In this document: positions 1-61,193 of the stretch, in pieces
Layout: every line of letters starts with the position of its first letter
Numbering within the stretch: the stretch's first letter is position 1
Origin: Globisporangium splendens
Taxonomy: Eukaryota > Oomycota > Peronosporomycetes > Pythiales > Pythiaceae
Direction of reading: 5' to 3'
Assembly (NCBI GenBank): GCA_006386115.1
Contig: VFIW01000075.1
Location: forward strand, 1-64,000
DNA length: 64,000 nucleotides
Notes under the pieces: generated by a model
Told to the model about the DNA's origin: nothing
What the model saw: the letters and a program-made list of their open reading frames with translations, nothing else
Database searches by the model: none
Program-made: the position numbers and the translations under genes

Positions 1-1007
1 TGGTACTCACCACGAAGTACCTCGAGAGCCGAACCTGCCTCTTCCACAGAGCGCAAAAGGCGATCGTGAGCCAACTCACGGGACTTCTCGTTCTTCCGGA
101 GTCGAACAAGTTCGTCCTGAACCTGTTGGAACCGTTCCTCGTAACGGGACTCCAAAGCCGAACACTGGGCAGAACCTTCTGTCAGATCGTCGATCTTCAA
201 CTCATGATCGGCGACAAGGTTTTCGAGACTCTCGCAGCGTTCCTCAAGTGTCGAACAACGCTGCTGCAAAGCCTCTATTTGCCCACGATGAGCACTCTTC
301 CACTTCCAGAGTCGCTCAATCGTTTTCTCGTTCAGTCCCACCCCCGTTATTAGACTCTCAGGGAGAGCATCGCTGGGTGGTTGAGTCGATTGTTGATCAT
401 GAAGATCGACCGACTCATCGTCGAGGAAAGAAGCAGTTGAACCATCAACGCTTCTACAGAGTTCGGTGGCGTGGATATCCACCGAGCTCGGACACGTGGG
501 AGCCTCGTCAGACATTGGAGTCTGATGTTCCCAACGTGGTCCGCAGCTATGAGAACTGCTTGTAGCGTCGCCAGGGGCGACACTACGACGACCAGAGCTA
601 GGGTTCGCTCTGTCGTCAGCAGGAGTTCTTCTTTCGGCACGAACGTTGCCACGACGAAGAAGACGCTCCATCTTGTTCTCGTTCTCAAGACGAACAAACG
701 TTCGCCATGAGTCTCTCTGGGCTGCGATGTGTTGGTTCGGATCATCACGATTGTTGATCCGACGCCAACTGAAGAACCGCTCCTTGTAGAACTCGAGCTC
801 CCCCTTCTTCTTCAGAATGGGAGAGATGTCGAAGAGTTCTGGAGCTGTCTGCTGTCGTTTGGACGACGGACGTTCTTCTCGGTTCACTTGGTCACTTGGT
901 CGCTTCATTGCCAATTGGAAAGTGAACTGCTCCGAAAGGTCTGCAAAAGTACGCAAGGTACTTGTGACTTTAAGGAGGGGATGATGTAATGGGCTATAAC
1001 CAGCCAT
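1..1007 (-). CDS. Antisense frame of family B, copy 0 (3' end outside window)
   Basis: On the minus strand an ATG at 1007-1005, inside the LTR about 20 bp from its edge, opens a frame that I read as uninterrupted to the left window edge (335 codons). It is the same frame as the intact 388-codon antisense ORF of B2 (22166-23332), with no net insertion or deletion over the shared length. Between the sense stop (565) and the LTR (985), where no sense coding constrains the bases, I count about 13 differences from B2, of which about 7 are silent in this antisense frame. The predicted product is basic near the N terminus and coiled-coil toward the C terminus. Function unknown; expression not shown. 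Confidence 0.5.
   Translation of the reverse strand, partial: MAGYSPLHHPLLKVTSTLRTFADLSEQFTFQLAMKRPSDQVNREERPSSKRQQTAPELFDISPILKKKGELEFYKERFFSWRRINNRDDPNQHIAAQRDSWRTFVRLENENKMERLLRRGNVRAERRTPADDRANPSSGRRSVAPGDATSSSHSCGPRWEHQTPMSDEAPTCPSSVDIHATELCRSVDGSTASFLDDESVDLHDQQSTQPPSDALPESLITGVGLNEKTIERLWKWKSAHRGQIEALQQRCSTLEERCESLENLVADHELKIDDLTEGSAQCSALESRYEERFQQVQDELVRLRKNEKSRELAHDRLLRSVEEAGSALEVLRGEY
2..565 (+). CDS. pol: 3' end of family-B Pol: linker and chromodomain (5' end outside window)
   Basis: The frame is open from base 2 to the stop at 565 and has no start here because the rest of the element lies left of the window. It matches the C-terminal part of the B1 and B2 Pol frames almost base for base. 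The first ~110 residues are a Ser/Pro/Arg-rich, probably disordered linker that follows the integrase in full elements. The last ~65 residues form a chromodomain-like module with the aromatic and charged pattern RWRGYPPSSDTWEP. Chromodomains at the integrase C terminus are known from chromoviruses (Ty3/gypsy), where they steer integration toward marked chromatin. Most of this segment is also covered by an antisense frame. The call as a B fragment is secure; whether it is expressed is unknown. Confidence 0.85.
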   Translation, partial: GTHHEVPREPNLPLPQSAKGDREPTHGTSRSSGVEQVRPEPVGTVPRNGTPKPNTGQNLLSDRRSSTHDRRQGFRDSRSVPQVSNNAAAKPLFAHDEHSSTSRVAQSFSRSVPPPLLDSQGEHRWVVESIVDHEDRPTHRRGKKQLNHQRFYRVRWRGYPPSSDTWEPRQTLESDVPNVVRSYENCL

Positions 1008-7600: not shown

Positions 7601-8558
7601 AGCACGCGCTGCGAGAGCAACGAAAAAGCAAGACAAAGCCGTCGCGGCAGCGCGGCAATTTGTCGATGAGCGCGCAGCATTGTTGCGTCGCGTACGCGAC
7701 CAACTAGCTGCTGCGCAAGACAAGCAAAAGCTCTACGCCGATAAATCGGGTAGAAAGAACAAACAAACGTTTTGTGTGGGTGATAAAGTGCTTTTAAGCA
7801 TTAAAAACCTACCAAACGATGCAGTCACAACGCTCCCCAGCGGGAGTAAGTTGTTGCCACGATTCATCGGGCCATACACTGTTGTGGAGAAGATTGGAGA
7901 CTTGAATTACAAGCTCGATCTCCCAACGAGAATGGCAACGCACCCCGTGTTCTACGTGGGTTTGCTTAAGCGCTACCATGACGCTACTGTGGATTTTTAT
8001 CCCAGTCCGGGAGCACGTCGGTCTCATCAGGGGGCTCAGACGCCGCCCATCGAGACACGAGCGCGTTGTGCCTCTCCCAAAGCGTCTTCACTCGCGGAGC
8101 GTACCTCGCGTGGAAGTGCTTCCCGCGGACATGGTACTCCTCCAGCATCTGACGAGCTTCCTTCAGCTCCGTCTCAAGCGCTGTCACCCTCTGCTTCAAC
8201 AGCGAGGTTTCGTCCAGATATTGCTGGCGAAGGGTACGGACGGCTTGCTGTAGCGCCCCCAAAGACGATGCGTTCGCGTGAACCATCTGAACCATCGCAT
8301 CTGGTGCAACCACCGATGCTGAAGCGAAGTAGGGCGCCACCTGTCCCGCTGATTGACAAGCAGGGACAGCGCCACTACCATGTTGAGCGCCTGCTGCGTG
8401 TGCAGCGGCGTAAGGGGAACACCCACTACCTTGTGAAGTGGCGTGGGTACGATGTGTCACAGAGCTCGTGGGAGCCTGCTGAGCGTCTTCGCGAAGACGT
8501 CCCGGATCTTGTTGACGCCTTTGAGGCGCAACTGAGGGACTGTCATTCGCGCGAGTAA
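4539..8558 (+). CDS. pol: RT-RNaseH-integrase-chromodomain polyprotein of element A
   Basis: A single open frame of about 1,340 codons. It opens with a TTG, so it has no initiator ATG and is expected to be reached from upstream. Reverse transcriptase spans roughly residues 125-330, with the catalytic SYFDDIFVHS. RNase H has VVCDTSDFAIGCALM and TDHASLR. Integrase has the HHCC zinc domain (HEFHDAPASGHLGR to CEQCQRVK) and the DDE residues in SMDFVFGF, IVSDRDPRF and QTERVNRVVED. A GPF/Y-like IGPYTVVEKIGD region follows, then a long disordered linker and a C-terminal chromodomain (YLVKWRGYDVSQSSWEP). The enzyme set would copy RNA to DNA and integrate it. No stop interrupts it, so this is the best-preserved sense enzyme frame of the complex. 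The linker is overlapped by an antisense frame. Confidence 0.9.
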   Translation: MTWRSDARQRSPEANASDEVFFAEFAALHELPSTVEAIVSLEEMSYELFLTDLERDQIREIVVPTAFPRGELCTSSTADESVLESDKQRRFAAQDWDAVKGSPYFDLLWEFKDVFPDKVPSALPVDRGVRHEIDLEPGSKYCVTRQWPLPREQVEAIDEFFAKRALTGHVRESKSPHSSPTFCVRKATGGWRIVHAFNKPNAATIPAQTPIPRKDVLIDSMGGSTVFSALDLMDGFYQILMRESDVPLTAVSTPSGMLWEWLVMPQGLKNAPATFNRLVTHLLRPHRAYAPSYFDDIFVHSRAEGGLSVVDVHKRHLRSVLQCLRDNSLYCNLKKCIFGASEIPILGCYVGKAGVRADPEKIKAIADWPIPKNVKDLRKWLGLANYLHKYSHNYAARVRPLTHLLKKDVEWDWTNDVMNAFIDVKESLVRAPVLALPDHTKAFSVVCDTSDFAIGCALMQKDDDGHERVVSYQSRLLKAAEKNYPVHDKELLAIKYALLKFRVHLLGATPFVVYTDHASLRTAINSPHLSQRMARWLAFFSEFNFRVEYKPGKENVLADALSRRPDYESSADSSSDALCLERTPDLMHLSISRVQTKLKDNIQSLYPKDDECRLLIAHFDGSSKESLPAKLESKLARFSYHDGLLWHRLSNFDYPRVYVPHDQDLKLSILHEFHDAPASGHLGREKTFLQVSNVFWWPHQYKWVANYVRSCEQCQRVKPAGKNKAPLHPLPIPQDCWKSVSMDFVFGFPEDKTRNTGVVVFVDRLSKMVHVAPVRKHVTAQETACLFLEHVFRYHGLPESIVSDRDPRFTAAFWRELFRLLGTDLAMSSADHPETDGQTERVNRVVEDILRSTAVDHPRDWSRWLPYAEFAINSSEHASTAVTPFYFNSLRHPRVPATLFEGVERSAVGGQLAALDASARSPSPDVGSTAHVDARDAPPVRSRSESVTVLPDSTQSIDMSGTVLSYGTRVPKDGSPTVPSYGTRAKNSQSQTESGDCSCERQPRKEGRAVSHTGAEIDLSAARAARATKKQDKAVAAARQFVDERAALLRRVRDQLAAAQDKQKLYADKSGRKNKQTFCVGDKVLLSIKNLPNDAVTTLPSGSKLLPRFIGPYTVVEKIGDLNYKLDLPTRMATHPVFYVGLLKRYHDATVDFYPSPGARRSHQGAQTPPIETRARCASPKASSLAERTSRGSASRGHGTPPASDELPSAPSQALSPSASTARFRPDIAGEGYGRLAVAPPKTMRSREPSEPSHLVQPPMLKRSRAPPVPLIDKQGQRHYHVERLLRVQRRKGNTHYLVKWRGYDVSQSSWEPAERLREDVPDLVDAFEAQLRDCHSRE

Positions 8559-9320
8559 TTTGTCGCCTGATACCAGCGCGACCACCCGCTTGCAGAGGCG
8601 TGCCACCGCCCTGCTTGGAGCGAAACAGACGAACACGGTCAACTGCAAATTGCATGCGTTGACTGCGTTGCGCTGTCGGATCGGTAGACACTGTGCGAGT
8701 GCTACCTCCCTTAATTTTATTGATGCACGACATGAAGTCGGCATCGTACTCTTCTTCCGTCTCTCCAACAAAGAGGACGACTGGGATCGGGTGAATACGC
8801 AATTCCCCATTTTCACCCCGCAATCGCTTTTCACGCCAATTTTTAAATTGAGCGTCATAGTCCCGCGCACAAAGTCTGGCTCTCGCGAGCAGATTCGATG
8901 CGGTCTTGCCAGCCGCCATAGTTCTGGCGGCGGCATTTCGGGCAGTGAGTACTTGAGCTCATCGTGAACGATGGCTCGCACTCCTGCCTCTTCGTTTGTA
9001 ATGAGGACTTCGTGCTTCCTCTTACGATTGTTGACAGCCTCAACGGCGTCATTTTCCTCCTTCGTCCGATACATCGAGACGTCAGCGGATGGATCTCCCT
9101 CGAGCTCGTGGAGATAAGCGGCGTGTCGCTCGCTTTGCAACTCCTCGTACTCGACCCACTCGTCGACGGAGCCGAGCTTCATGGTGAGTGCTCCCTCGTC
9201 TTCAAGCGAGCTCCCGTCATTGTCAACGACGAGGAATTCCTCAGTCACTACCTCCTCTTCCAAAGCACGCGCGAACAACGGCTTCACGGAAGGGAGGTGT
9301 AATGGGGTATAACCAGCCAT
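7984..9320 (-). pseudogene. Antisense frame of family A, with one frame change
   Basis: Two minus-strand frames lie end to end: one from 9320 to beyond 8920, and one of 311 codons from an ATG at 8919 to 7984. They meet near 8920 with a 1-nt frame change, giving about 440 codons in all. The upstream part is acidic (ALEEEVVTEEF, DEWVEYEELQ). The downstream part has a charged block (KNWREKRLRGENGE), a low-complexity middle, and a C-terminal coiled-coil stretch (LLKQRVTALETELKEARQML). The ATG at 9320 comes from the inserted B LTR. Reading across the insertion into the remaining A tail, the frame continues without a stop almost to the A LTR. It covers the sense linker and chromodomain. It resembles the B antisense ORF in position and architecture, not in sequence. 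Whether the frame change is decay or a removed intron is unknown. Confidence 0.4.
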
Positions 9321-9946: not shown

Positions 9947-9948
9947 CC

Positions 9949-9966
9949 TGGTAGCACTTCGAGCGG
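9949..9966 (+). other. Primer-binding site of B1
   Basis: TGGTAGCACTTCGAGCGG begins two bases after the LTR end. It shares TGGTAGCACT with element A, then diverges, so only the first 8-10 bases are likely to pair with the priming tRNA. An identical site follows the LTR at 16308-16957 and primes B2. Confidence 0.65.
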
Positions 9967-9987
9967 TCCTTCCAACGACCCAGTGAA

Positions 9988-11115: not shown

Positions 11116-11136
11116 GGAGGGGCCTCCCACTGGCCC
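11094..11136 (+). promoter_or_regulatory. -1 frameshift signal at the gag-pol boundary of B1
   Basis: AAAAAAC at 11094-11100 is in frame as A AAA AAC, the most efficient class of -1 slippery heptamer (used at mouse mammary tumour virus gag-pro). A short hairpin follows, GGGCC (11120-11124) with GGCCC (11132-11136) over a 7-nt loop, some 20 nt downstream, farther than the usual 5-9 nt spacer. In B1 one base after the gag stop has been lost relative to B2, and a TAA precedes the Pol ATG at 11213, so the -1 path is broken here although the heptamer is kept. Confidence 0.65.
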
Positions 11137-11212
11137 GGAAAAGAGGACTGTGGACGTTGTGGAGACACAGGACTCTGACCCCCATGTGCATTAAGCACAT
11201 GCAGTTTCCACT

Positions 11213-14200
11213 ATGAGTGAGAAGAGTGTCAGTCAAACGTCAAGTTTGATCGTTCATAAAGTTCATGTAGACGGTATTGCAACGCCTCTACGAGCTTTGG
11301 TTGACACTGGTGCGTCGAACAACTTTGTTCGAAATGAAGTAATCATCAGGCATGGTGTCTTCGTGCCTGATGCGAATGAAGAAAAGACAATGATTGTCCG
11401 GTTGGCAAATGGGTCAACTGTGAAGATGCCGAAGCGCGTGGTGCGCTTGGCAATCACGTGTGAAGATTTCCGAGGTGAAGACGAGTTCATTTTACTCGAC
11501 CTCGATGACAAGTTTGACATCATCCTGGGAATGCCGTGGTTGAAGCGTTACCAACCTAGCATTGACTGGATGAATATGAAGATCTCCGTTGACAAGTCAC
11601 GCGATGTTGACTTGTGCTGCACAACAACGGATGAAGTGGTATGGGTGTACACATCTGTGGAAGAGGTCCCAGATGGCCCTTGTGGCATTGCGGTATGCGA
11701 TGGCCCCCCATGTTCACAAGTGGTACCCATTTTGAAGACGACGAACGGAGGTGGAGCAGTCAGGCGCCAGAAAAAGACTGTCTCCTTTGCCATCGACGAC
11801 GACAAGGTTCGCGATGGCGTTGACAAGAGTGAATGGAAGAGGAACAAACACCCTTCCCAACAAGACAAGAAGAAGACCAGCAAGAGAAGTGTTTCGTCAA
11901 GAGTTTTGAGTTCCCCCGATCAAGGTACAAGTGGCGATGAGGAAGGGAGTGTCCAAGCACAAGACATTCCAAGCGAGTTTGTGAATATCGCGGTCTACAA
12001 TGAAGAAGGTGACATGGATGTAATCCGTCACGTGAAGGTTGAAAATCCTCCAAGTTCAGTCCAAGAGTTGATTTCCTTGCTGTCGATAAGCAAGAAGACA
12101 CTGGAGCGCAGCCTATCGAGAGGCGATATTGCGCAGGTGTGTGTGATCGTCGAAATGGTCGACGAAGGCTTCGTCAACACAGCATCGAGTGCGGATGTGT
12201 TGGACGAAAAGACACGGAAGGAAAGGTTCGAGGAGCAGTCGTGGGACGCCCTCAAGAAGAACCCCGTGTATGCGCTTGCCAAGGGATATGAAGACATCTT
12301 CCCTGACAAGGTGCCGGACGAATTGCCATTCGACAGAGGCATTCGTCATGAGATTGATGTACTTCCTGGCACGAAGTACTGCATCACAAGACAGTGGCCG
12401 TTGTCAAAGGAACAAGTCGAGGCAATCGACGAGTTCTTTACACAACGTGCTAAGGCTGGTCATGTGCGAGAGAGCAAGTCTCCGCATTGCAGCCCCACTT
12501 TCTGTGTGAAGAAAGCAACTGGAGGTTGGCGCATTGTTCATGCTTTCAACAAGCTGAACGACGCGACAATTCCAGCCCAGACTCCGGTTCCACGCAAGGA
12601 CATGATCCTTGGTGGAATGGTTGGCAGCACCGTCTTTAGTGCTATCGATCTGAAAGATGGGTTCTATCAGATTCGAATGCGTGAGAGCGATGTTCCACTA
12701 ACCGCAGTGAGTACCCCGAGTGGTATGCTGTGGGAATGGTTAGTGATGCCACAGTGACTGAAGAATGCTCCTGCGACCTTCAATCGAATGGTCACGAACG
12801 TTCTTCGTCCTCTGCGAACATTTGCACCAAGTTACTTTGACGACATTTTCGTTCACAGTAAGGTCACGAATGGGAAGTCTGATGTCGATGTTCATCTCGA
12901 TCATCTTCGTCAAGTTTTCCAGGTCATGCGTGAGAACAAACTCTACGCAAACTTGAAGAAGTGTATGTTCTTCGCCCCCGAGATCCCTGTTCTCGGTTGT
13001 TTTGTGGGCAAGAGCGGTGTTCGAGTCGATCCGGAGAAGGTCAAAGCTATTGACGATTGGCCTGTGCCAAAGAAGTCAAACAGCTACGACAATGGTTGGG
13101 TCTAGCCAACTACTTGCACAAGTACACGCGCAATTATGCAGCGTTGGTGCAACCCCTCACACAGCTCTTGAAGAAAGACGTTGAGTGGAAGTGGTCGAAA
13201 GACCATCAGACGGCGTTCGAAGAAGTCAAGAGGAGTCTTCGAGAAGCTCCTGTGTTGGCTCTGTCAAACCACGACAAGCCGTTCCACGTCGTCTGTGATG
13301 CGAGCGACTATGCCATCGGTTGCGCATTGATGCAACACGATGATGAGGGTCACGAGCGAGTTGTGTCGTATCAGTCACGACAACTCCGACCCGCAGAACG
13401 GAACTACCCAGTTCATGACAAGGAACTTCTGGCGATGAAGTATTCTTTGGTCAAGTTCCGTGTGTATCTGCTTGGCGAGGAGCGCTTTGCTATCTACACT
13501 GACCACGCATCTTTGCGTACGGCAGTGAAGACTCCTCATTTGTCGCAAAGAATGGCGAGATGGTTCTCCTTCTTTGCAGAGCACAACTTTGTTGTACACT
13601 ACAAGCCAGGCAAGACGAACATCTTAGCCGATGCGCTGTCAAGACGTCCGGATTACGATCCGAAGACCAAGAGTGAAGACACGGACGGAGCGTGTCGACT
13701 CTGTGAAGATGTTCAAGCGATCGTGGTGCGAGCTACGACTACAGTGCGAGAAGAAATCGTCGAAGGGTACAAGTCTGACGAAACATGTCAGGACTTGCTG
13801 AAGTACTTCAAGAACCCTTCCGACAAAGCGCTGCAAGGTCTTCCGTCGCGCACAAGATCGCGAGTTCACCGCTTTCGAGTACACAATGGGTTGTTGTACT
13901 ACGCGGTCGAACAAGGGGATACAGCAAGGGTTGTTGTTCCCAACGACGAAGGTCTGCGTCATCGACTCTTGTATGAGTACCATGACAGTCCTTCGGGTGG
14001 CCACCTCGGACGTGAGAAAACGTTTCTCAGTCTTTCCCGGGATTACTACTGGCCACACATGTACAAGTGGGTACGCAAGTATGTGAGGACTTGCGAGATC
14101 TGCCAGCGAGTGAAACCCTCTGGTTCCACGCAGGCACCACTTCGTTCATTGGCTGTCCCGTCGGACAGTTGGAAGTCTGTGAGTATGGATTTCATATTCG

Positions 14201-15747
14201 GACTTCCAAGAGACACACATGGACGCAATGGCATCCTTGTGTTTGTGGACCGATTCAGCAAGATGGTTCATCTTGCGCCTGTTTCGGACAAGATCTCTGC
14301 TGAGAAGACTGCCAAGGTCTTTGTAGACGTCGTATTCCGTCTGCACGGACTACCAGTCGAGATCGTGTCTGACCGTGACACCCGTTTCACGTCCAAGTTC
14401 TGGCGTGCACTGTTCGGACTTCTGGACACCAAGTTGTCCATGTCAACAGCGGCACACCCTGAAACGGACGGTCAAACAGAGCGAGTGAATCGCGTCCTCG
14501 AAGACGTGTTGCGCAGTTACGCAACGTCTTTCAAAGAGTGGAGTGAGTTTCTCCCTCTTGCCGAGTTTGCGTTGAACAACTCCACGCATGTCTCGACAGG
14601 TCACTCTCCATTTTATGTGAACTATGGCATTCACCCTCGAGTGCCTGCTTCCATAATGGGTGAGGTCTCTGCCTTAAGTGGGGGAGGGACTCCGGCTCAT
14701 GGTAACAAGCCGAAGTCGTCTTATGACCTGAGTGCTGCTTCCGAGTTGAAAGCAAATTTTGACTCGATGAAACCCCTCGACGACCTAACAAGTCGTGAAG
14801 AGCAGCAAGTCGATGACTTTGTTGTGAGGAGGCAAGCCGTTGTGAGGTTTGTTCGAGACGCAATTGCGAAGGCTCAGGATCTGCAAAAGGAACAAGCAGA
14901 CAAGAGCGGAAGGAAGAACAAGCAAGTTTATAAGATCGATGATCTTGTATTGCTTAGCACGGCGAACCTGCCTGAACACGCAGTGTCCAACTTGGGAAGC
15001 TCGAAGCTTCTGCCAAGGTTCATCGGACCGTTCAAGGTAGTTAAATGCAATGGGGATGCATACACGCTAGACATACCTACACGCATGCGTCTACACCCGA
15101 CATTTTATGTGGGTAGACTAAAGCCTTACCTTCCAAGTGGATCTGCGGATCCTACGAGATCTTCCGCAAACGATCGAGCTGATCGTGAAGCCTCTCCACT
15201 TGATTGCGAAAAGCAAACAGCTCATCGCTCTGGAGATTCTTCTCGGCGTACAGGAGTTGCAGGACGTCGAAGGATTGGTCCTTCACTGCCTCCAACGCTT
15301 GAAGACGAGAATGGTACTCACCACGAAGTACCTCGAGAGCCGAACCTGCCTCTTCCACAGAGCGCAACAGGCGATCGTGAGCCAACTCACGAGACTTCTC
15401 GTTCTTCCGGAGTCGAACAAGTTCGTCCTGAACCTGTTGGAACCGTTCCTCGTAACGGGACTCCAAAGCCGAACACTGGGCAGAACCTTCTGTCAGATCG
15501 TCGATCTTCAACTCATGATCGGCGACAAGGTTTTCGAGACTCTCGCAGCGTTCCTCAAGTGTCGAACAACGCTGCTGCAAAGCCTCTATTTGCCCACGAT
15601 GAGCACTCTTCCACTTCCAGAGTCGCTCAATCGTTTTCTCGTTCAGTCCCACCCCCGTTATTAGACTCTCAGGGAGAGCATCGCTGGGTGGTTGAGTCGA
15701 TTGTTGATCATGAAGATCGACCGACTCATCGTCGAGGAAAGAAGTAG
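11213..15747 (+). pseudogene. pol: Pol of B1 (protease-RT-RNaseH-integrase-linker), disrupted
   Basis: From the ATG at 11213 the protease (LRALVDTGASNNFV, then IILGMPWLKRYQPS) and RT run in one frame. A TGA at 12755-12757 replaces the Gly codon seen in B2 (CAGGGACTG). The frame resumes through SYFDDIFVHS and is shifted by a 1-nt loss near 13072. From 13057 a second long frame contains the end of RT, RNase H (VVCDASDYAIGCALM), the integrase HHCC (YEYHDSPSGGHLGR to CEICQRVK) and DDE residues, and the IGPFKVVKCNGD region. A CAG-to-TAG change at 15745-15747 truncates it just inside the chromodomain, and the following ~150 bp are rearranged. Three independent lesions mean no functional enzyme is made. 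Confidence 0.9.
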
Positions 15748-16330
15748 TTGAACCATCAACGCTTCTACAGAGTTCGGTGGCCGGGGAGAGCACTGAAGCT
15801 CGGACACTGGGTAGCATCGGCAGCCATTGGAGTCTGATGTTCTCCCGACGTGGTCCGCAGCTATGAGAACTGCTTGGAGCGTCCGCAGGGGATGACATTA
15901 CGACGACCAGAGCTACGGTTTCGCTCTGTCGTCAGCGGGAGTTCTTCTTTGGGCACGAGCGTTGCCACGACGAAGAAGACGCTCCATCTTGTTCTCATTC
16001 TCAAGACGAACAAATGTTCGCCATGAGTCTCTCTGGGCTGCGATGTGTTGGTTCGGATCATCACGATCATTGATCCGACGCCAACTGAAGAACCGCTCCT
16101 TGTAGAACTCGAGCTCCCCCTTCTTCTTCAGAATGGGAGAAATGTCAAGGAGTTCTGGAGCTGTCCGCTGTCCGCTGTCGATTGGACGACGGACGTTCTT
16201 CACGGTTCACTTGGTCACTTGGTCGCTTCATTGCCAATTGCAAAGTGAACTGCTCCGAAAGGTCTGCAAAAGTACGCAAGGTACTTGTGGCTTTAAGGAG
16301 GGGATGATGTAATGGGCTATAACCAGCCAT
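15152..16330 (-). pseudogene. Antisense frame of B1, broken
   Basis: The C-terminal 248 codons (15152-15898) still read as the coiled-coil part of the B antisense protein, with NEKTIERLWKWKSAH and the heptad-rich LQQRCSTLEERCESLENL. The N-terminal part, from the ATG at 16330 in the LTR, is split over different frames by indels around 15780-15900 and 16140-16200. The B2 counterpart is intact, so B1 shows decay of the same gene. Confidence 0.55.
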
Positions 16331-16957
16331 TACATGAAGGTGGATCTGTCCCCAGATCTAGTGTGTCACACACCACCTTCAGCGTGCATTGTGGAGACAC
16401 AAATGACAAAGGGATTACGGTAAGACAGTCCCCACATGCACGTGTGACGTCATTCGATGACGTCACGAGTGTTCTCTGTGCTGATCAGTGCAGAATGTCG
16501 TTCTCATGTACTAATCAGTACAGAGCGATGACATCCATGTACTAATCAAGTACTGAGTGATGGTTCCTGCTTGGGAAACTGGGCTGGCGACGAGACCGAC
16601 GTGTGTCTGCCACCTGGAGTGAGTGGCGCGAGCCAATCACTTTGCATGGATTTTATACAAGACTTGAAGCTCAAGCTTCTAGAATATCCCGTAGGTTCAA
16701 CCTCAGTGTACCCAAGGTTTTATATATCAGATTCATAGGTTTTATTGTGTATGTTTAGGTTTTAGTTATAAAACCTGTATGAGCCCTTGGGGTTCATTTG
16801 TAAGTAGCGACAGGAACCATAACCATTTTCAATTCAGTTGCAAATTTTCCTCCAAGTACTCAAGTCTTCGTTCCTCCCTCCAAGTCGGGAGATCGCTTCT
16901 CTGGCACAAGCGTGTGTGCCGTGTTTGAGGGACTGTTTGGAACAGCGCCCTCTTACA
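16308..16957 (+). repeat. LTR of family B shared by B1 and B2
   Basis: 650 bp, TGTAATGGGC...CTCTTACA. It is preceded by a B polypurine tract and followed by a B primer-binding site, so one LTR serves as the 3' end of B1 and the 5' end of B2. Such LTR sharing is the signature of ectopic recombination between LTRs, or of tandem insertion products, and not of two separate integrations. Confidence 0.9.
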
Positions 16958-17077
16958 CCTGGTAGCACTTCGAGCGGTCCTTCCAACGACCCAGTGAAGT
17001 GAAGAGGTTTGACGACGCGGCATTGAAGCACGTCGCGCATTCCTGTCCAAGACCCTGCGAGCATCCTTGTTTGGAAC

Positions 17078-18124
17078 ATGGATGCTACAGGAACCCCACT
17101 CGGTCCAACAGTACCGGAAACTGTCGAGTTGACTATTGAGGGTTTCCCTCATCTGTCTTCTCATGAGCGGATGGCGCTTGAGCGCATGCGAGATGTCATC
17201 GGAGAGGCTGCCGTGGTCAGTCTGCTTCGATCGGCGTCTCCAGAGGACCAGAAGAGCGCGGTGGTCAGTTTCATGCACCACGAGATCATGTCCTCCCGGA
17301 AGCAGGTCTCAACCCCTGTTTCCTCAATCAGGACGGTGCCACTGAAGCTTGACGTCTCTCCGTATCGCGGCGGAGAGAACGAGCCTCTCTCACGATGGTT
17401 CGTCGAGTTGGATGCAGCCATCGCTGCAAGACAACTGCGAGACCCTTCGCAGCAAGTGTTGTTCGCGGTGTCCCCTTGCGGGTCGTGCGAAGAGCTGGGC
17501 GTATGGCAAGCGTTTAGCGATCTAAACTGCTTCCCCAGCTACGATCATTTCAAGACCGAACTCAAGAAGGCGTTTGAACCTCCACAGAGTGAGTTCCTGC
17601 ACGCGCCGAGTTCCTCAAGCTTCGTCAAGGCCGTTTCGACCTTCACTCGTATGCACAACGTGCTCGTTACTTTGGTGTCGAGCATCGTTGACGAGCCGAT
17701 TGACGTTCCGACGCAAGTCGTGACGTTCATGGCGGGTCTGAACGATGGTCCGATTTGGAACTAACTGTTCCGCGAGTATCCGAAGACGCTGGACGAAGCC
17801 ATCGAACGCGCGATGCAAGAAGAGTTCAGCATGAAGCAAGCGAAGTTCCACGGGTTTGCGTCGAGACCAATGCGGCAATCAAATGTTGCGCATGATGGTC
17901 CCGAGCCCATGGACATCTCGTACATTTCCACGCCTGGGAATGAGCGTCCTCGCAACGATGGAAAGTGTTTCCGTTGCGGGAAGCCGGGTCACATTGCTCG
18001 GAACTGCAAGGTGTCTTTGCCGGGTCGGCAAACGACACAGGGTGCTCGTTCGAACAACCACGATCGTTCTTACGGTCGTCGGTTCGATCGATCACCTGGA
18101 CCAAAAAACGGGAATGGACAGTAG
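17078..18124 (+). pseudogene. gag: Gag of B2, disrupted
   Basis: The ATG at 17078 begins the same protein as B1 (MDATGTPLGPTVPE). Small indels shift the frame near 17470-17520 and again near 17595 (one G lost), and a CAA-to-TAA change stops it at 17762-17764. The nucleocapsid part resumes in 17813-18124 with the CCHC knuckle CFRCGKPGHIARNC and ends at TAG 18122. No complete Gag can be made. Confidence 0.85.
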
Positions 18125-18146
18125 GGGCGGGGCCTCCTACTGGCCC
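18103..18146 (+). promoter_or_regulatory. -1 frameshift signal at the gag-pol boundary of B2
   Basis: AAAAAAC at 18103-18109 is in the gag frame as A AAA AAC. A GGGCC/GGCCC hairpin lies at 18130-18134 and 18142-18146. Unlike B1, the -1 frame is open from within gag (17965) through the gag stop into protease, so this copy preserves the ancestral frameshift arrangement of family B. Confidence 0.7.
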
Positions 18147-21100
18147 GGAAAAGAGGACTGTGGACGTTGCGGAGACACAGGACTCTGGCCCCTATGTGCA
18201 TCAAGCATATGCAGTTTCCACTATGAGTGAGAAGAGTGTCAGTCAAACGTCAAGTTTGATCGTTCACAAAGTTCATGTAGACGGTATTGCAACGCCTCTG
18301 CGAGCTTTGGTTGACACTGGTGCGTCGAACAACTTTGTTCGAAATGAAGTGATCGTCAGGCATGGTGTCTTTGTGCCTGATGCGAATGAAGAGAAGACAG
18401 TGATTGTCCGGTTGGCAAATGGGTCGACTGTGAAGATGCCGAAGCGCGTGGTGCGCTTGGCAATCAAGTGGAAGATTTCCGAGGTGAAGGCGAGTTCATT
18501 TTACTCGACCTCGATGACAAGTTTGACATCATCCTGGGAATGCCATGGTTGAAGCGTTACCAACCTAGCATTGACTGGGTGAATATGAAGATCTCCGTTG
18601 ACAAGTCACGCGATGTTGACTTGTGCTGCACAACAACGGATGAAGTGGTATGGGTGTACACATCTGTGGAAGAGGTCCCAGATGGCCCTTGTGGCATTGC
18701 GGTATGCGATGGCCCCCCATGTTCACAAGTGGTACCCATTTTGAAGACGACGAACGGAGGTGGAGCAGTCAGGCGCCAGAAAAAGACTGTCTCCTTTGCC
18801 ATCGACGACGAGAAGGTTCGCGATGGCGTTGACAAGAGTGAATGGAAGTGGAACAGACACCCTTCCCAACAAGACAAGAAGAAGACCAGCAAGAGAAGTT
18901 TTTCGCCAAGAGTTTTGAGTACCCCTGATCAAGGTACAAGTGGCGATGACGAAGGGAGTGTCCAAGCACAAGACACTCCAAGCGAGTTTGCGAATATCGC
19001 GGTCTACAATGAAGAAGGTGACGTGGATGTAATCCGTCACGTGAAGATTGAAAATCCTCCAAGTTCAGTCGAAGAATTGATTTCCTTGCCGTCGATGAGC
19101 AAGAAGACACTGGAGCGCAGCCTAGCGAGAGGCGACATTGCGCAGGTGTGTGTGATCGTCGAAATGGTCGACGAAGGCTTCGTCAACACAGCATCGAGTG
19201 CGGATGCGGATGTGTTGGACGAAAAGACACGGAAGGAAAGGTTCGAGGAGCAGTCGTGGGACGCCCTCAAGAAGAACCCCGTGTATGCGCTTGCCAGGGA
19301 ATTTGAAGACATTTTCCCTGACAAGGTGCCGGACGAATTGCCATTCGGCAGAGGCATTCGTCATGAGATTGATGTACTTCCTGGCACGAAGTACTGCATC
19401 ACAAGACAGTGGCCGTTGCCAAAGGAACAAGTCGAGGCGATCGACGAGTTCTTTGCACAACGTGCTAAGGCTAGTCATGTGCGGGAGAGCAAGTCTCCGC
19501 ATTGAAGCCCCACTTTCTGTGTGAAGAAGGCAACTGGAGGTTGGCGCATTGTTCATGCTTTCAACAAGCTGAACGACGCGACAATTCCAGCCCAGACTCC
19601 GGTTCCACGCAAGGACATGATCCTTGATCGAATGGTTGGCAGCACCGTCTTTAGTGCTATCGATCTGAAAGATGGGTTCTATCAGATTCGAATGCGCGAA
19701 GACGATGTTCCACTAACTGCAGTGAGTACCCCGAGTGGTATGCTGTGGGAATGGTTAGTGATGCCACAGGGACTGAAGAATGCTCCTACGACCTTCAATC
19801 GAATGGTCACGAACGTTCTTCGTCCTCTGCGAACATTTGCACCAAGTTACTTTGACGACATTTTCGTTCATAGTAAGGCCACGAATGGGAAATCTGATGT
19901 CGATGTTCATCTCGATCATCTTCGTCAAGTCTTCCAGGTCATGCGTGAGAACAAACTATACGCAAACTTGAAGAAGTGCATGTTCTTTGCACCAGAGATC
20001 CCTGTTCTCGGTTGTTTTGTGGGCAAGAGCGGTGTTCGAGTCGATCCGGAGAAGGTCAAAGCTATTGACGATTGGCCAGTGCCAAAGAATGTCAAACAGC
20101 TACGACAATGGTTGGGTCTAGCCAACTACTTGCACAAGTACACGCGCAATTATGCAGTGTTGGTGCAACCCCTCACACAGCTCTTGAAGAAAGACGTTGA
20201 GTGGAAGTGGTCGAAAGACCATCAGACGGCATTCGAAGAAGTCAAGAGGAGTCTTCGAGAAGCTCCTGTGTTGGCTCTGCCAAACCACGACAAGCCGTTC
20301 CACGTCGTCTGTGATGCGAGCGACTATGCATCGGTTGCGCATTGATGCAACACGATGATGAGGGTCACGAGCGAGTTGTGTCGTATCAGTCACGACAACT
20401 CCGACCCGCAGAACGGAACTACCCAGTTCATGACAAGGAACTTCTGGCGATGAAGTATTCTTTGGTCAAGTTCCGTGTGTATCTGCTTGGCGAGGAGCGC
20501 TTTGCTATCTACACTGATCACGCATCACTGCGTACGGCAGTGAAGACTCCTCATTTGTCGCAAAGAATGGCGAGATGGTTCTCCTTCTTTGCAGAGTACA
20601 ACTTTGTTGTACACTACAAACCAGGCAAGACGAACATCTTAGCCGATGCGCTGTCAAGACGTCCGGATTACGATCCGAAGACCAAGAGTGAGGACACGGA
20701 TGGAGCGTGTCGACTCTGTGAAGATGTTCAAGCGATCGCGGTGCGAGCTGCGACTACAGTGCGAGAAGAGATCGTCGAAGGGTACAAGTCTGACGAAACA
20801 TGTCGGGACTTGTTGAAGTACTTCAAGGACCCTTCCGACAAAGCACTGCAAGGTCTTCCGTCGCGCACAAGATCGCGAGTTCACCGCTTCCGAGTACACA
20901 ATGGGTTGTTGTACTATGCGGTCGAAAAAGGGGATACAGCAAGGGTTGTCGTTCCCAACGACGAAGGTCTGCGTCATCGACTCTTGTATGAGTACCATGA
21001 CAGTCCTTCGGCTGGCCGTCTCGGACGTGAGAAAACGTTTCTCAGTCTTTCCCGGGATTACTACTGGCCACACATGTACAAGTGGGTGCGCAAGTATGTG

Positions 21101-22890
21101 AGGACTTGCGAGATCTGCCAACGAGTGAAACCCTCTGGTTCCACGCAGGCACCACTTCGTTCATTACCTGTCCCATCGGACAGTTGGAAGTCTGTGAGTA
21201 TGGATTTCATATTCGGACTTCCAAGAGACACACATGGACGCAATGGCATCCTTGTGTTTGTGGACCGATTCAGCAAGATGGTCCATCTTGCGCCTGTTTC
21301 GGACAAGATCTCTGCTGAGAAGACTGCCAAGGTCTTTGTAGACGTCGTATTCCGTCTACACGGACTACCAGTCGAGATCGTGTCTGACCGTGACACCCGT
21401 TTTACGTCCAAGTTCTGGCGTGCACTGTTCGGACTTCTGGACACCAAGTTGTCCATGTCAACAGCGGCACACCCTGAAACGGACGGTCAAACAGAGCGAG
21501 TGAACCGCGTCCTCGAAGACGTGTTGCGCAGCTACGCAACGTCTTTCAAAGAGTGGAGTGAGTTTCTCCCTCTTGCCGAGTTTGCGTTGAACAACTCCAC
21601 GCATGTCTCGACAGGTCACTCTCCATTTTACGTGAACTATGGCATTCATCCCCGAGTGCCTGCTTCCATAATGGGTGAGGTCTCTACCTTAAGTGGGGAG
21701 GGACTCCGGCTCACGGAAACAAGCCGAAGTCGTCTTACGACCTGAATGCTGCTTCCGAGTTGAAAGCCAATTTTGACTCGATGAAACCCCTCGACGACCT
21801 AACAAGTCGTGAAGAGCAGCAAGTCGATGACTTTGTTGTGAGGAGGCAAGCCGTTGTGAGGTTTGTTCGAGACGCAATTGCGAAGGCTCAGGATCTGCAA
21901 AAGGAACAAGCAGACAAGAGCGGAAGGAAGAACAAGCAAGTTTATAAGATCGATGATCTTGTATTGCTTAGCACGGCGAACCTGCCTGAACACGCAGTGT
22001 CCAACTTGGGAAGCTCGAAGCTTCTGCCAAGGTTCATCGGACCGTTCAAGGTAGTTAAATGCAATGGGGATGCATACACGCTAGACATACCTACACGCAT
22101 GCGTCTACACCCGACATTTTATGTGGGTAGACTGAAGCCTTACCTTCCAAGTGGATCTGCGGATCCTACGAGATCTTCCGCAAACGATCGAGCTGATCGT
22201 GAAGCCTCTCCACTTGATTGCGAAAAGCAAACAGCTCATCGCTCTGGAGATTCTTCTCGGCGTACAGGAGTTGCAGGACGTCGAAGGATTGGTCCTTCAC
22301 TGCCTCCAACGCTTGAAGGCGAGAATGGTACTCACCACGAAGTACCTCGAGAGCCGAACCTGCCTCTTCCACAGAGCGCAACAGGCGATCGTGAGCCAAC
22401 TCACGAGACTTCTCGTTCTTCTGGAGTCGAACAAGTTCGTCCTGAACCTGTTGGAACCGTTCCTCGTAACGGGACTCCAAAGCCGAACACTGGGCAGAAC
22501 CTTCTGTCAGATCGTCGATCTTCAACTCATGATCGGCGACAAGGTTTTCGAGACTCTCGCAGCGTTCCTCAAGTGTCGAACAACGCTGCTGCAAAGCCTC
22601 TATTTGCCCACGATGAGCACTCTTCCACTTCCAGAGTCGCTCAATCGTTTTCTCGTTCAGTCCCACCCCCGTTATTAGACTCTCAGGGAGAGCATCGCTG
22701 GGTGGTTGAGTCGATTGTTGATCATGAAGATCGACCGACTCATCGTCGAGGAAAGAAGCAGTTGAACCATCAACGCTTCTACAGAGTTCGGTGGCGTGGA
22801 TATCCACTGAGCTCGGACACGTGGGAGCCTCGTCAGACATTGGAGTCTGATGTTCCCGACGTGGTCCGCAGCTATGAGAACTGCTTGTAG
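18107..22890 (+). pseudogene. pol: Pol of B2, disrupted; chromodomain end intact
   Basis: Protease (VDTGASNNFV) is read in the -1 frame. One base is lost near 18470, the frame then runs to a TGA at 19503 (TGC in B1), and resumes at 19521 with RT (SYFDDIFVHS). A 1-nt loss near 20328 and another near 21700 shift it again. The segments carry RNase H, the integrase HHCC and DDE, the IGPF region, the linker and the C-terminal chromodomain (FYRVRWRGYPLSSDTWEP), which unlike B1 ends normally at 22890. The lesions do not coincide with those of B1, so the two copies decayed independently after their common origin. Confidence 0.9.
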
Positions 22891-23332
22891 CGTCGCCAGG
22901 GGTGACACTACGACGACCAGAGCTACGGTTCGCTCTGTCGTCAGCAGGAGTTCTTCTTTCGGCACGAGCATTGCCACGACGAAGAAGACGCTCCATCTTG
23001 TTCTCATTCTCAAGACGAACAAATGTTCGCCATGAGTCTCTCTGGGCTGCGATGTGTTGGTTCGGATCATCACGATCATTGATCCGACGCCAACTGAAGA
23101 ACCGCTCCTTGTAGAACTCGAGCTCCCCCTTCTTCTTCAGAATGGGAGAAATGTCGAAGAGTTCTGGAGCTGTCTGCTGTCGCTTGGACGACGGACGTTC
23201 TTCACGGTTCACTTGGTCACTTGGTCGCTTCATTGCCGAATGGAAAGTGAACTGCTCCGAAAGGTCTGCAAAAGTACGCAAGGTACTTGTGACTTTAAGG
23301 AGGGGATGATGTAATGGGCTATAACCAGCCAT
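22166..23332 (-). CDS. Intact antisense ORF of family B (basic, coiled-coil protein)
   Basis: 388 codons from an ATG lying 23 bp inside the 3' LTR, across the polypurine tract, and under the whole chromodomain and linker of Pol; about 725 bp are dual-coding. The N-terminal third has basic patches (KRPSDQVNREERPSSKRQ; MERLLRRGNARAERR) suitable as nuclear-localization or nucleic-acid contacts. The C-terminal ~190 residues are rich in heptads typical of a coiled coil (LQQRCSTLEERCESLENL; LEVLRGEYHSRLQALEAV). I recognise no catalytic domain. An antisense gene read from the 3' LTR and ending in a coiled coil recalls HBZ of HTLV-1; some plant Ty3/gypsy elements also carry antisense ORFs. The frame survives although sense gag-pol of the same copy is broken at six or more sites. 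Transcription is not demonstrated. Confidence 0.6.
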   Translation of the reverse strand: MAGYSPLHHPLLKVTSTLRTFADLSEQFTFHSAMKRPSDQVNREERPSSKRQQTAPELFDISPILKKKGELEFYKERFFSWRRINDRDDPNQHIAAQRDSWRTFVRLENENKMERLLRRGNARAERRTPADDRANRSSGRRSVTPGDATSSSHSCGPRREHQTPMSDEAPTCPSSVDIHATELCRSVDGSTASFLDDESVDLHDQQSTQPPSDALPESLITGVGLNEKTIERLWKWKSAHRGQIEALQQRCSTLEERCESLENLVADHELKIDDLTEGSAQCSALESRYEERFQQVQDELVRLQKNEKSRELAHDRLLRSVEEAGSALEVLRGEYHSRLQALEAVKDQSFDVLQLLYAEKNLQSDELFAFRNQVERLHDQLDRLRKIS

Positions 23333-23960
23333 TACATGAAGGCGGATCTGTCCCCAGATCTAGTGTGTCACACACCACCTTCAGCCTGCATTGTGGAGAC
23401 ACAAATGACAAAAGGGATTACGGTAAGACAGTCCCCACATGCACGTGTGACGTCATTCGATGACGTCGCGAGTGTTCTCTGTGCTGATCAGTGCAGAATG
23501 TCGTTCTCATGTACTAATCAGTACAGAGCGATAACATCCATGTACTAATCAAGTACTGAGTGATGGTTCCTGCTTGGGAAACTGGGCTGGCGACGAGACC
23601 GACGTGTGTCTGCCACCTGGAGTGAGTGGCGCGAGCCAATCACTTTGCATGGATTTTATACAAGACTTGAAGCTCAAGCTTCTAGAATATCCCGTAGGTT
23701 CAACCTCAGTGTACCCAAGGTTTTATATATCAGATTCATAGGTTTTATTGTGTATGTTTAGGTTTTAGTTATAAAACCTGTATGAGCCCTTGGGGTTCAT
23801 TTGTAAGTAGCGACAGGAATCATAACCTTTTCAATTCAGTTGCAATTTTTCCTCCAAGTACTCAAGTCTTCGTTCCTCCCTCCAAGTCGGGAGATCGCTT
23901 CCTCTGGCACAAGCGTGTGTGCCGTGTTTGAGGGACTGTTTGGAACAGCGCCCTCTTACA
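23310..23960 (+). repeat. LTR of family B, right LTR of B2
   Basis: 651 bp, TGTAATGGGC...CTCTTACA, preceded by the B polypurine tract. It is followed by CTATATGTGCC, the A tail, exactly as at 1637. It holds the ATG of the antisense ORF, with the CRE-type dyads about 115 bp upstream of that ATG in the antisense direction. Confidence 0.9.
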
Positions 23961-29900: not shown

Positions 29901-32429
29901 CTATGGGCGTCTCTCTTTCTCTGGCTGCTGTGTCAAGGACGACGACCCATGTGCTGATTCCGGCATGAACGCATTGCTCTTGTACAAGTACATGGACGTG
30001 TCGATAAGCTTGGTCGCGTACTCGAAGTTCGCGCGCGTCTCGTTGCTCATGTGCTCCGGATCTGTGCCCTTCTCGATCGGTGAGTACTCGCCCGGATCCT
30101 TCGCCACGTTAAATACTTCGAACGCGCCTGAGCCGTAGAACGCGTACTTGAGGTCGCCCACACGCACACCCTTGGTGCCGCGGTGGTATGGGTTCTCCAG
30201 CACCACGCGCCGCCCGCTCTCCTTGCGCATCGCAGAGTGGCCGATACCGTGCTGCGTGAACCCTTCAAGACTGATCATGTCAGCGATCGTCGCGAGGATG
30301 TCGGTCTGCGACGTGACGTCGGTCACCTGTGTGCCCTTTTGTGAATCCGGGATGAAATCATCCGCCAGGATCAGCAACGGGATGTGTGTCGCCACTTCGT
30401 ATACAAACGACGAGATCACATCTGGGTTGTCGCCGTGCTCCATGCGGCCGTAGCCGTGGTCGCCCTCGATGATCACGATCGTGTTCTCCAAGAGCCCCTT
30501 CGAGCGCAGGTTTGTAATGAGCTTGCCCAGTGCGCGATCGGCCATGTTCATCGCCTTCAGGTACCGCTCGTTGTGCTCCGTCAGCAGCGCAGACACATTA
30601 TCCGAGACAAACTTGCTCGGGACGACCCACGGATCGTGGCTCGTGATCGAGTACACGTCAAGGAACATCGGTTTTCGGTCGGGCTGCTTGGCTCGCGCTT
30701 CGAGGTAGTTCTCCAGCGCCGCAAACGAGATCGGGTCGTGACGTCCCCAGGAGAATCGGTCATCGTCCGTCAGCTTTGCCTTCTGCTCCTCAGTCAAGTA
30801 CTGCAACAAGCTATCCTGGTCAACGCGGAAGTCGATGCCGTGGTCCTTGAAGAAGCCGTCCCAGTCCTCCCACTTGAAACTCACGGCCGACCAGAACCCC
30901 GTGACGTACCCGAGCATGTCGCGCAACAGGTTCTGGATGCCCTGGATACGCAGCTTCAGCTTCTTGATGTCGCGCACGGCCGAGCCGTCCGTGAACGACG
31001 GCATCACGCCAAAGAGCGACGACATGAGCGTGCGCGACGTCTGGATCGACGGCGTGTAGTGGCTTTTGAACAGGATCCCGGACTTGCTGAATTCGTCAAA
31101 GAACGGCGACGGTGTCTGGTTGAACTTGGCCTTCAACTCGGCACCACCGATGCAGCCGATGTCGTGAGCACGCCACGACTCCATGTTGATGAAAATAATG
31201 TCGGGCTTGAATTTTCCGTTGTACTTCTTCTTGCTCGCGGCCGTTGGTACGATATTGAACCGCTTTTTGCCCATGTACCCGAGCGTCTTGCGCCAGAACG
31301 GGTATGCGGCCAGCGTGTCGTTGCCTTCGATGGAAAACACTTCGTTCGTGCCGATGGTCGAGACGAGGAACTCTGTGTGCTGGTTAGTTGAGAGCGGCAT
31401 GAGCATCGTGTGTGCCGAGTCCGGGGGTCGCAAGTAGTTCTCCATCTGCAGCGAGAACATGGCGTTCGACATGAGGTAAATGTCGTTGCCGTCGCCGTCG
31501 AGCGCGATCGTCGCCTGCAACGCAGACACGTACACCGTGATGGTGAGGAACACGTACCGAAAGTTCAGCGATGTGAACGCGTTAAACACCCACGCCATGG
31601 GGCTACCGGCGCGCGATTTCACGTCCGCGACTTTCTCACGCTTGCGCTGCGCTGGAGCTCCTGGTAATGGCGGCACAGCGGCACGGGAGCGATTGGTCGT
31701 GTCGCTGCCAGTGCTTGTGCGTCGTGTACTACTGTGGTGGCCCTTGAAGCAGAAGAGGATGTCGAACTCCGGGAGCGCGATCTTGTCGGCTGCGAACCCG
31801 TAGGTCCACCACGCGAGCGACAGGATGTACGAGACGAGGCCCACGATGATCGACGGCGTGAGCACTTCGGGGTTCACGACGGACGCCATGAACTGATCGG
31901 CAAACATGAAATACATCTCGACAAAGCCGCGGTTCAGGCGTGGGTGGAACGTGACGAGCAGCCCAAAGTCGATAAACACCGCGAGCGTGGCCCACAAGAA
32001 CGCGAACACGAGCGTCAGCACGACGACGACGCGCGCACACCCGCGCAGCACTTTCATGAGCAGCCCCATCATCTTGGTCGAGTTGGTCGCGTGTTCCTCG
32101 TTCTGCGCCTCAGTCATAGCCACGAGCAGGTACTGGCCGTTCGTGGTCGTCGCGAAGCTCGCTCGCACGCGGTCATGGAGCGCGAGCGCGACGCGCACGA
32201 TGAGCAGCGTCTGGAAGCAGATGGCGAGGTCCTGCACGAAGCCGAAGAAGCTGCCCTTGACGATGTTGGACACGCCCAGCAGCTCGCTGTTGCGCAGGAT
32301 GCTGAGCCAGCGCGAGTAGAGCGGGTACGCGAACAGCGGCATGTACAGCGCCGAGCTCCACGCCATCCAGTACGCGTAGCTCGCGACGAGAGTGCGCGCA
32401 CGCGCCAGCGCCGCGGAAAGCTGCACCAT
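29901..32429 (-). CDS. LTA-synthase-like sulfatase-family membrane protein
   Basis: 842 residues from the ATG at 32429; upstream in-frame codons start only at a GTG and are left out. The N-terminal ~280 residues contain about five membrane segments (YWMAWSSALYMPLFAYPL; VVVVLTLVFAFLWATLAVF; PSIIVGLVSYILSLAWW), and another lies near residue 300. The C-terminal ~450 residues are a sulfatase/alkaline-phosphatase-fold domain: PDIIFINMESWRAHD (metal-binding Glu, ~418), SIQTSRTLMSSLFG (candidate Thr nucleophile, ~461) and TIVIIEGDHGYGR (metal-binding Asp-His, ~655). This architecture matches bacterial lipoteichoic-acid synthase and phosphoglycerol transferases, which move phosphoglycerol outside the membrane. 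The eukaryotic substrate is unknown. No intron is needed. Confidence 0.85.
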   Translation of the reverse strand: MVQLSAALARARTLVASYAYWMAWSSALYMPLFAYPLYSRWLSILRNSELLGVSNIVKGSFFGFVQDLAICFQTLLIVRVALALHDRVRASFATTTNGQYLLVAMTEAQNEEHATNSTKMMGLLMKVLRGCARVVVVLTLVFAFLWATLAVFIDFGLLVTFHPRLNRGFVEMYFMFADQFMASVVNPEVLTPSIIVGLVSYILSLAWWTYGFAADKIALPEFDILFCFKGHHSSTRRTSTGSDTTNRSRAAVPPLPGAPAQRKREKVADVKSRAGSPMAWVFNAFTSLNFRYVFLTITVYVSALQATIALDGDGNDIYLMSNAMFSLQMENYLRPPDSAHTMLMPLSTNQHTEFLVSTIGTNEVFSIEGNDTLAAYPFWRKTLGYMGKKRFNIVPTAASKKKYNGKFKPDIIFINMESWRAHDIGCIGGAELKAKFNQTPSPFFDEFSKSGILFKSHYTPSIQTSRTLMSSLFGVMPSFTDGSAVRDIKKLKLRIQGIQNLLRDMLGYVTGFWSAVSFKWEDWDGFFKDHGIDFRVDQDSLLQYLTEEQKAKLTDDDRFSWGRHDPISFAALENYLEARAKQPDRKPMFLDVYSITSHDPWVVPSKFVSDNVSALLTEHNERYLKAMNMADRALGKLITNLRSKGLLENTIVIIEGDHGYGRMEHGDNPDVISSFVYEVATHIPLLILADDFIPDSQKGTQVTDVTSQTDILATIADMISLEGFTQHGIGHSAMRKESGRRVVLENPYHRGTKGVRVGDLKYAFYGSGAFEVFNVAKDPGEYSPIEKGTDPEHMSNETRANFEYATKLIDTSMYLYKSNAFMPESAHGSSSLTQQPEKERRP

Positions 32430-61009: not shown

Positions 61010-61089
61010 GCCTTCCTTTATGTGAAGGATCGCTTGGGAAGTCGCACGCAGCTTTGGAAATGAGACGACTCGCTGGCTTCGCTGGAGAC

Positions 61090-61193
61090 CTGTAAAGCCA
61101 CCATCCACACACAGAAGATTTCTGTCTTGCAGCACCGACTGTACCACTCGAAATGCAGGTGTGCTTGTTTTGGGAAGGGAAACCACACTTACT
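61090..61193 (-). other. Probable 5'-UTR intron of ABCB copy 2
   Basis: On the minus strand CCCAAA/GTAAGTGTGG at 61193 and GCTTTACAG/GTCTCC ending at 61090 delimit 104 bp. Splicing puts a stop in the upstream frame before the ATG at 61009, supporting that start. Confidence 0.6.

Follow-up and report, generated by a model that had tools for sequence, protein, structure and literature searches.

Does the long open reading frame on the minus strand beneath the 3' end of a chromodomain retrotransposon of Globisporangium splendens belong to a gene of the element, and if so, what would its protein do? The window considered here is the whole stretch of DNA that was analyzed (64,000 nucleotides, positions 1 to 64,000 of contig VFIW01000075.1). 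In it lie two Ty3/gypsy elements in tandem, B1 and B2, and an element of a second family, A, with its pol at 4527-8555. The features from which the question starts are the following.

22166..23332, minus strand: antisense ORF of the B2 copy (P0001), 388 codons plus stop, from ATG to stop
21760..22890, plus strand: C terminus of the sense pol with SH3 (Tf2-1 like), linker, and chromodomain (Pfam PF24626 and PF00385), stop at 22890
23310..23960, plus strand: 3' LTR of B2 (TGTAA...TTACA), with a purine-rich tract at 23297-23309 directly before it
15152..16330, minus strand: B1 copy of the antisense ORF (the second in the window), disrupted by indels, 96.7% identical with 10 gap openings
1..1007, minus strand: third copy, truncated where the window begins, with 98.2% identity and a frame that is open over 3-1034
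7990..9317, minus strand: antisense gene of family A, disrupted in the window, C-terminal part 7990-8958 and N-terminal part 8463-9317

The 388-codon frame is present where the preliminary description had placed it, and its length from stop to stop is 397 codons. Since the LTR begins (TGTAATGG) at 23310, the ATG at 23332 lies 23 nt inside it; from there the ORF leaves the LTR, spans the purine-rich tract, as had been claimed for the polypurine tract, runs through the approximately 0.4 kb of internal DNA that separates the B pol stop from the LTR, and then passes under the chromodomain and the linker. The claimed course under these two pol segments is also borne out by the chromodomain match (PF00385, E 2.3e-11) and by the place of the linker between SH3 and chromodomain.

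Such a frame could be a by-product of chance or composition, left open by sense codon use. In its favor, the non-coding part of B alone has an ORF length that is only mildly unusual (reached in 111 of 5000 shuffles). However, with a null model that preserves the sense protein and its codon counts within the overlap, and the dinucleotides elsewhere, the full length of the B antisense ORF was reached in 0 of 5000 shuffles (mean 112, maximum 296), and the observed lengths of the corresponding ORFs of family A and of a third family, D, were likewise reached in 0 of 5000. Together with the rate comparisons below, the evidence supports a true protein-coding gene of the retrotransposon on its antisense strand, not a chance ORF.

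The state of other copies in the same genome (53.3 Mb, 195 contigs) bears on this point as well. A search with the antisense protein gave at least 106 matches scored among 500 candidates, and 84 of the 106 listed have no stop in the matched stretch. This list is ranked by antisense similarity and hence biased, and therefore the 40 best copies were taken by integrase DNA. Of these 40, 31 were assessed, of which 13 are fully intact, three are open from residue 29, and 15 are broken or not found at the expected place. The 15 comprise two with stops, three with a one-base length change (called broken from their length and their absence among the matches listed, without reading the sequence), and 10 broken or absent at the expected place. 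That many single copies have lost the frame counts in favor of a chance by-product. The preliminary description had also stressed that the ORF is intact in B2, and it is, but this intactness is weak evidence with only 13 of 40 integrase-chosen copies fully intact; because single copies decay, that of any one copy means little, and per-copy intactness was rejected as evidence of selection.

Comparison between divergent copies was more informative. Four of them, L085-L088, were reached by a search with the C-terminal end of the D-family sense pol and picked for long pol frames, and a homologous antisense frame is open in all four. Antisense stops in other B copies are not at chance level; the frames are open in subfamilies at an antisense-only dS of 1.4-1.8. 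With rates computed per frame, as if the frames did not overlap, the window copy and L086 show an antisense dN/dS of 0.21 in the antisense-only part (dS 1.67), of 0.36 in the linker overlap, where the sense value is 1.58, and of 1.55 in the chromodomain overlap, where the sense value is 0.28; in the SH3 part, the sense dN/dS is 0.04. The check in the antisense frame that had been suggested for this ORF thus gives values far below 1. Four pairs that match the window copy, L085, or L087 with L086 or L088 have an antisense-only dN/dS of 0.21-0.26, with dS at 1.4-1.8. Moreover, across seven B pairs, the ranges are 0.21-0.34 for the antisense-only part, 0.19-0.36 (antisense) and 1.20-1.73 (sense) for the linker, 0.60-2.73 (antisense) and 0.20-0.38 (sense) for the chromodomain, and 0.02-0.06 (sense) for SH3. 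In these sequence comparisons, the overlap constraint in B alternates, each protein's free stretch lying opposite a constrained stretch of the other.

Polymorphism among copies was read from a 54-row alignment made without the same-place loci L001, L009, L011, L012, L021, and L033 (the window copy standing for L001 and L009) and without the copy cut at the window start; the broken B1 copy (W_B1) was left out of the counts. The 53 counted copies are the window copy, seven from a DNA search, and 45 from antisense protein lists (25 and 20 loci), these 45 being picked by antisense similarity. Variants shared by at least two copies fall on codon positions 1, 2, and 3 of the antisense frame 13, 14, and 30 times in the antisense-only part (p 0.009) and 14, 13, and 41 times in the linker overlap (p 2e-5). 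Singletons have no third-position excess (17, 14, and 11, and 20, 23, and 26, respectively). In the sense-only SH3 part, the third position of the sense frame dominates (45 versus 12 and 9), and there is no significant codon-position pattern opposite the chromodomain or in the LTR. A set of 21 integrase-chosen copies, made up of 15 sequences at hand and six of eight newly fetched (the other two having no match at the expected place), shows the same trend, weakly, with 6, 5, and 13 in the antisense-only part (p 0.095) and 6, 7, and 15 in the linker (p 0.076), and its control of LTR singletons also deviates (12, 11, and 24; p 0.038). Also, the ORF frame has the lowest pN/pS of the six frames in the antisense-only part of B, 0.30 (bootstrap 0.18-0.51), followed by the sense frame that shares its third positions, 0.50 (0.33-0.85), and therefore the intervals of the best and the next frame overlap. 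That the ORF frame is the lowest of six, and that in the linker overlap the frame free of constraint is the sense one, argues against a chance by-product, which we regard as having almost no probability.

Two further families show that the B case is not isolated. In family A, whose pol is 55-74% identical to that of B in blocks outside the chromodomain and 39% within it, the antisense gene is one frame in many other copies, mostly of 531-563 codons. Comparison of A alpha with A beta, based on seven of the 14 fetched copies (L059-L064 and L067) with approximately 26 N-terminal codons omitted, gives an antisense-only dN/dS of 0.29-0.33 at dS 1.5-1.7 (ten pairs; dN approximately 0.5, dS approximately 1.6). 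Overlap rates from 11 of the 14 copies show that the alternation holds at the chromodomain of A (antisense 2.00 versus sense 0.30) and does not at its linker (antisense 0.80, sense 0.52). Family D was found through its chromodomain, its copies being fetched for the sense chromodomain and picked among those with long pol frames, and all four have an antisense frame of 562-565 codons. The antisense-only dN/dS is 0.27-0.36 in five of the six D pairs and 0.83 in the closest pair; the overlaps of D also show the alternation, on few sites and with wide intervals, with values of 0.84 (antisense) and 0.17 (sense) for the chromodomain and 0.37 and 0.70 for the linker. A search of the genome with the D protein gave 81 matches; among the divergent ones that span nearly the full length, at 73-80% identity, most contain one or two stops. 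Taken together, all eight copies fetched by sense chromodomain or pol C terminus, four of D and four of B, carry the long antisense frame. As in B, the ORF frame has the lowest pN/pS of the six in the antisense-only part of A (0.54) and D (0.35), with bootstrap intervals that overlap those of the next-lowest frame, again the sense frame with which it has its third positions in common; each of the three sense frames is interrupted by stops in this part of the A and D copies inspected. According to these comparisons, purifying selection acts on an antisense protein in each of three chromodomain Ty3 families found here, namely A, B, and D.

The three proteins have a common layout, with an N-terminal part, a low-complexity spacer opposite the chromodomain, and a C-terminal helix or coil opposite the linker. 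Profile comparison finds no homology of A with B or D, nor of B with D (hhalign probability at most 0.5%). A weak likeness between B and D at B residues 68-126 was reached in one and six of 1000 shuffles among ten comparisons, and this similarity stays as a marginal lead. A match between MAGYTPLHLP of the A copy in the window and MAGYSPLHHP of B was considered as A-B homology and rejected because the A copy is joined to an LTR of B type, from which the match derives.

Could the product be the antisense RNA itself, acting through dsRNA or siRNA control, with the ORF incidental? Non-coding antisense LTR transcripts are known (PMC7264820). However, an antisense-only dN/dS or pN/pS well below 1 in three families calls for selection on a protein, and therefore an RNA product seems very improbable. 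A protein preserved by selection suggests a use of it by the retrotransposon.

Regarding the start, the idea that the gene begins inside the LTR does not hold as a conserved feature, since L086 and L088 have no ATG at the LTR position of 23332 and both have MKRxSDQV at Met34 (23233), MKRPSDQV in the window copy. This start is kept in the window copy, L041, L054, and L085-L088; upstream of it, an in-frame Met is absent from L086 and lies far up in the LTR in L088. Also, among the matches listed, 10 of 106 start only at residue 29 or 31. Because L086 and L088 lack the LTR ATG yet keep MKRxSDQV, sequence conservation makes Met34 the most likely start, which gives the following coding sequence.

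22166..23233, minus strand: probable coding sequence from Met34 to stop, 355 codons, wholly within the element

The LTR ATG is present in most B copies, and for those a start in the LTR is compatible with the data. Scanned with an oomycete INR/FPR consensus, the antisense strand shows a single INR-like site, located 293 nt upstream of the ATG in the LTR, and lacks an FPR element; this result gave no useful lead.

The predicted B protein has these parts, numbered from the LTR ATG.

23177..23233, minus strand: basic N terminus, residues 34-52, resembling a bipartite NLS (a putative reading) and conserved in L085-L088
22955..23131, minus strand: predicted helical stretch, residues 68-126, of low confidence in single-sequence AlphaFold2 (block pLDDT 39-71)
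22703..22891, minus strand: low-complexity spacer opposite the chromodomain, with relaxed antisense constraint
22169..22657, minus strand: C-terminal coiled coil, residues 226-388, opposite the pol linker, from AlphaFold2 helix and heptad periodicity

Both ends agree with what had been described, namely a basic N terminus, which is the KR-rich segment of residues 34-52, and a long C-terminal coiled coil. For the latter, single-sequence AlphaFold2 predicts a helix at residues 241-358 (block pLDDT 81-91 over residues 241-350 and 73 over 351-360), and the heptad periodicity was reached in 0 of 2000 shuffles. The spacer region is predicted to be disordered (pLDDT <50 at residues 127-225). Heptad periodicity is also supported in family A (19 of 2000 shuffles) and unsupported in the segment tried in D (1227 of 2000). 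Sequence searches of Pfam and PDB gave no match naming a function, Foldseek with the single-sequence B model gave none at E <= 0.001, and no relative was found in a collection of viral contigs searched with the B and A proteins or in a collection of genome contigs searched with the D protein. The KR-rich N terminus and the predicted coiled coil suggest a nuclear oligomeric protein.

We consider it reasonably probable that this is an accessory retrotransposon gene, overprinted on the 3' end of pol from the opposite strand, that encodes a nuclear regulator of the element's own LTR/U3 or chromatin. Antisense transcription from the element's 3' end would supply the mRNA for a nuclear protein that has a basic N terminus and oligomerizes through its coiled coil; this protein would most likely act on the element itself, regulating its own LTR/U3 or its chromatin state, and its fast-evolving N-terminal part would be matched to its own U3. 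The nuclear regulator reading probably applies on the basis of the KR-rich N terminus, the long predicted helix, and the analogy with HBZ/APH-2 and Grande gene23. The same gene could have another task, as a cofactor of the preintegration complex (nuclear import or chromodomain-linked targeting) or as an anti-silencing factor against the host. The gene overlaps the chromodomain, a domain thought to guide integration, and a basic N terminus with a coiled coil would suit either role; divergence between families with the layout kept would suit a protein in conflict with the host. Accessory roles are discussed in PMC7264820. No Pfam or PDB domain match points to these tasks, and nothing specific speaks against them. 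We give them perhaps one chance in three. Regulation of the element's own expression is favored here, with the cofactor and anti-silencing roles ranked close after it.

The pattern of divergence at the 3' end also counts in favor of the self-regulator reading. A alpha (L059) and A beta (L063) share approximately 96% identity over a stretch that begins where SH3 ends and reaches nearly to the end of the chromodomain, and approximately 60% from there through the antisense-only part; in their LTRs, the 5' (U3) part aligns only in short blocks, whereas identity is 92% over the last 204 bp. Between the window copy and L086, a block pattern of this type is also seen, less clean. The simplest reading of these sequences is recombination of blocks. 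The co-variation of U3 with the N-terminal part may reflect mere adjacency. A more speculative and rather doubtful proposal is that the overprinted gene and the U3 next to it make up a single cassette open to exchange, in which a self-specific regulator (the N-terminal part) would travel with its own U3 target as a block between elements with near-identical pol and LTR ends, the coil being a second exchangeable module. If true, this cassette would be the retrotransposon counterpart of repressor/operator immunity types. Separately, L085 is 65-80% identical to the window at 22279-22639, which codes for the coil, versus approximately 88-98% in the flanks, and its coil-coding stretch looks as if it had been swapped as a module.

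Comparable genes are known elsewhere. An additional antisense gene (brtn) was reportedly described in the Botrytis retrotransposon Boty by Zhao et al. in 2011. The likeness is one of description, since Boty too is a retrotransposon of a filamentous microbe with an additional gene in antisense, but its host is a fungus; the title of Zhao et al. is listed among the references of PMC8365987, and the Boty gene is mentioned in PMC7264820. In plants, antisense ORFs between pol and the 3' LTR (aORF-3R; Grande gene23, RIRE2, Retand ORF4) are described (PMC7264820 and PMC11963269) and, as here, retained in most copies of a family; the Grande product is nuclear, and some plant antisense ORFs have SMC-like matches. 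The general traits of aORF-3R are found here, that is, an antisense ORF over or behind the pol end and before the 3' LTR that is kept across copies and subfamilies, many single copies being broken, with conservation at the protein level in A, B, and D. The parallel with Grande and RIRE2 that had been drawn stands for position but not for the TRP28 domain of Retand (PF04195), which none of the four proteins examined (B, A-alpha, A-beta, and D) matches at E <= 1. Retand is a non-chromovirus (PMC11963269) with 2.9-6.6 kb between pol and LTR, whereas the elements here have a chromodomain, approximately 0.4 kb in B, and a large overlap with pol.

The antisense genes HBZ and APH-2 of HTLV-1 and HTLV-2 also lie at the 3' end of an LTR element and have nuclear products, HBZ with a C-terminal bZIP (PMC10186651). 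The likeness to HBZ is an analogy of place; kinship through bZIP is unsupported, as the same four proteins gave no bZIP family in Pfam at E <= 1. The conserved start here is inside the element. In oomycetes, the Chronos elements are Ty3/gypsy elements with a chromodomain at the pol end and a second RNase H (PMC5348765). The chromodomain at the 3' end of pol is present here by Pfam, and a Pfam scan of the A pol ORF at 4527-8555 found no second RNase H at E <= 0.001. The word antisense is absent from the Chronos paper (PMC5348765), and the open-licence literature searched yielded no report of oomycete retrotransposons with an antisense gene. New here are the oomycete host group, the recurrence in three chromodomain families, and the alternating overprinting. 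Oomycetes would then join plants and fungi as hosts of such genes, with at least three families at once, and there is codon-level evidence that an antisense overlapping gene of a retrotransposon makes a protein kept by selection. Also, the alternating constraint offers a clear example from nature of two proteins encoded by the same DNA, one on each strand, and may account for the length of the linker in these pol proteins.

Finally, some observations concern the layout of the window. The B array (1-1636 and 9297-23959) lies inside the A-family copy, replacing 256 bp at the start of the A antisense gene in comparison with L059; the same B-to-A junction occurs at 1636 and 23960, and a unit of approximately 22 kb seems to be tandemly repeated. 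The B LTRs start at 985, 9298, 16308, and 23310 with a near-palindrome, TGTAATGG...CCATTACA, and a near-palindrome resembling this start is found upstream of the D antisense ORF in L073. Host-like genes, assigned by Pfam, adjoin the elements over window positions 29904-61483.

29904-32621, minus strand: sulfatase
34844-37276, plus strand: ankyrin repeats
38029-39759, plus strand: amino acid transporter
51852-55844, minus strand: ABC transporter
57128-61483, minus strand: second ABC transporter
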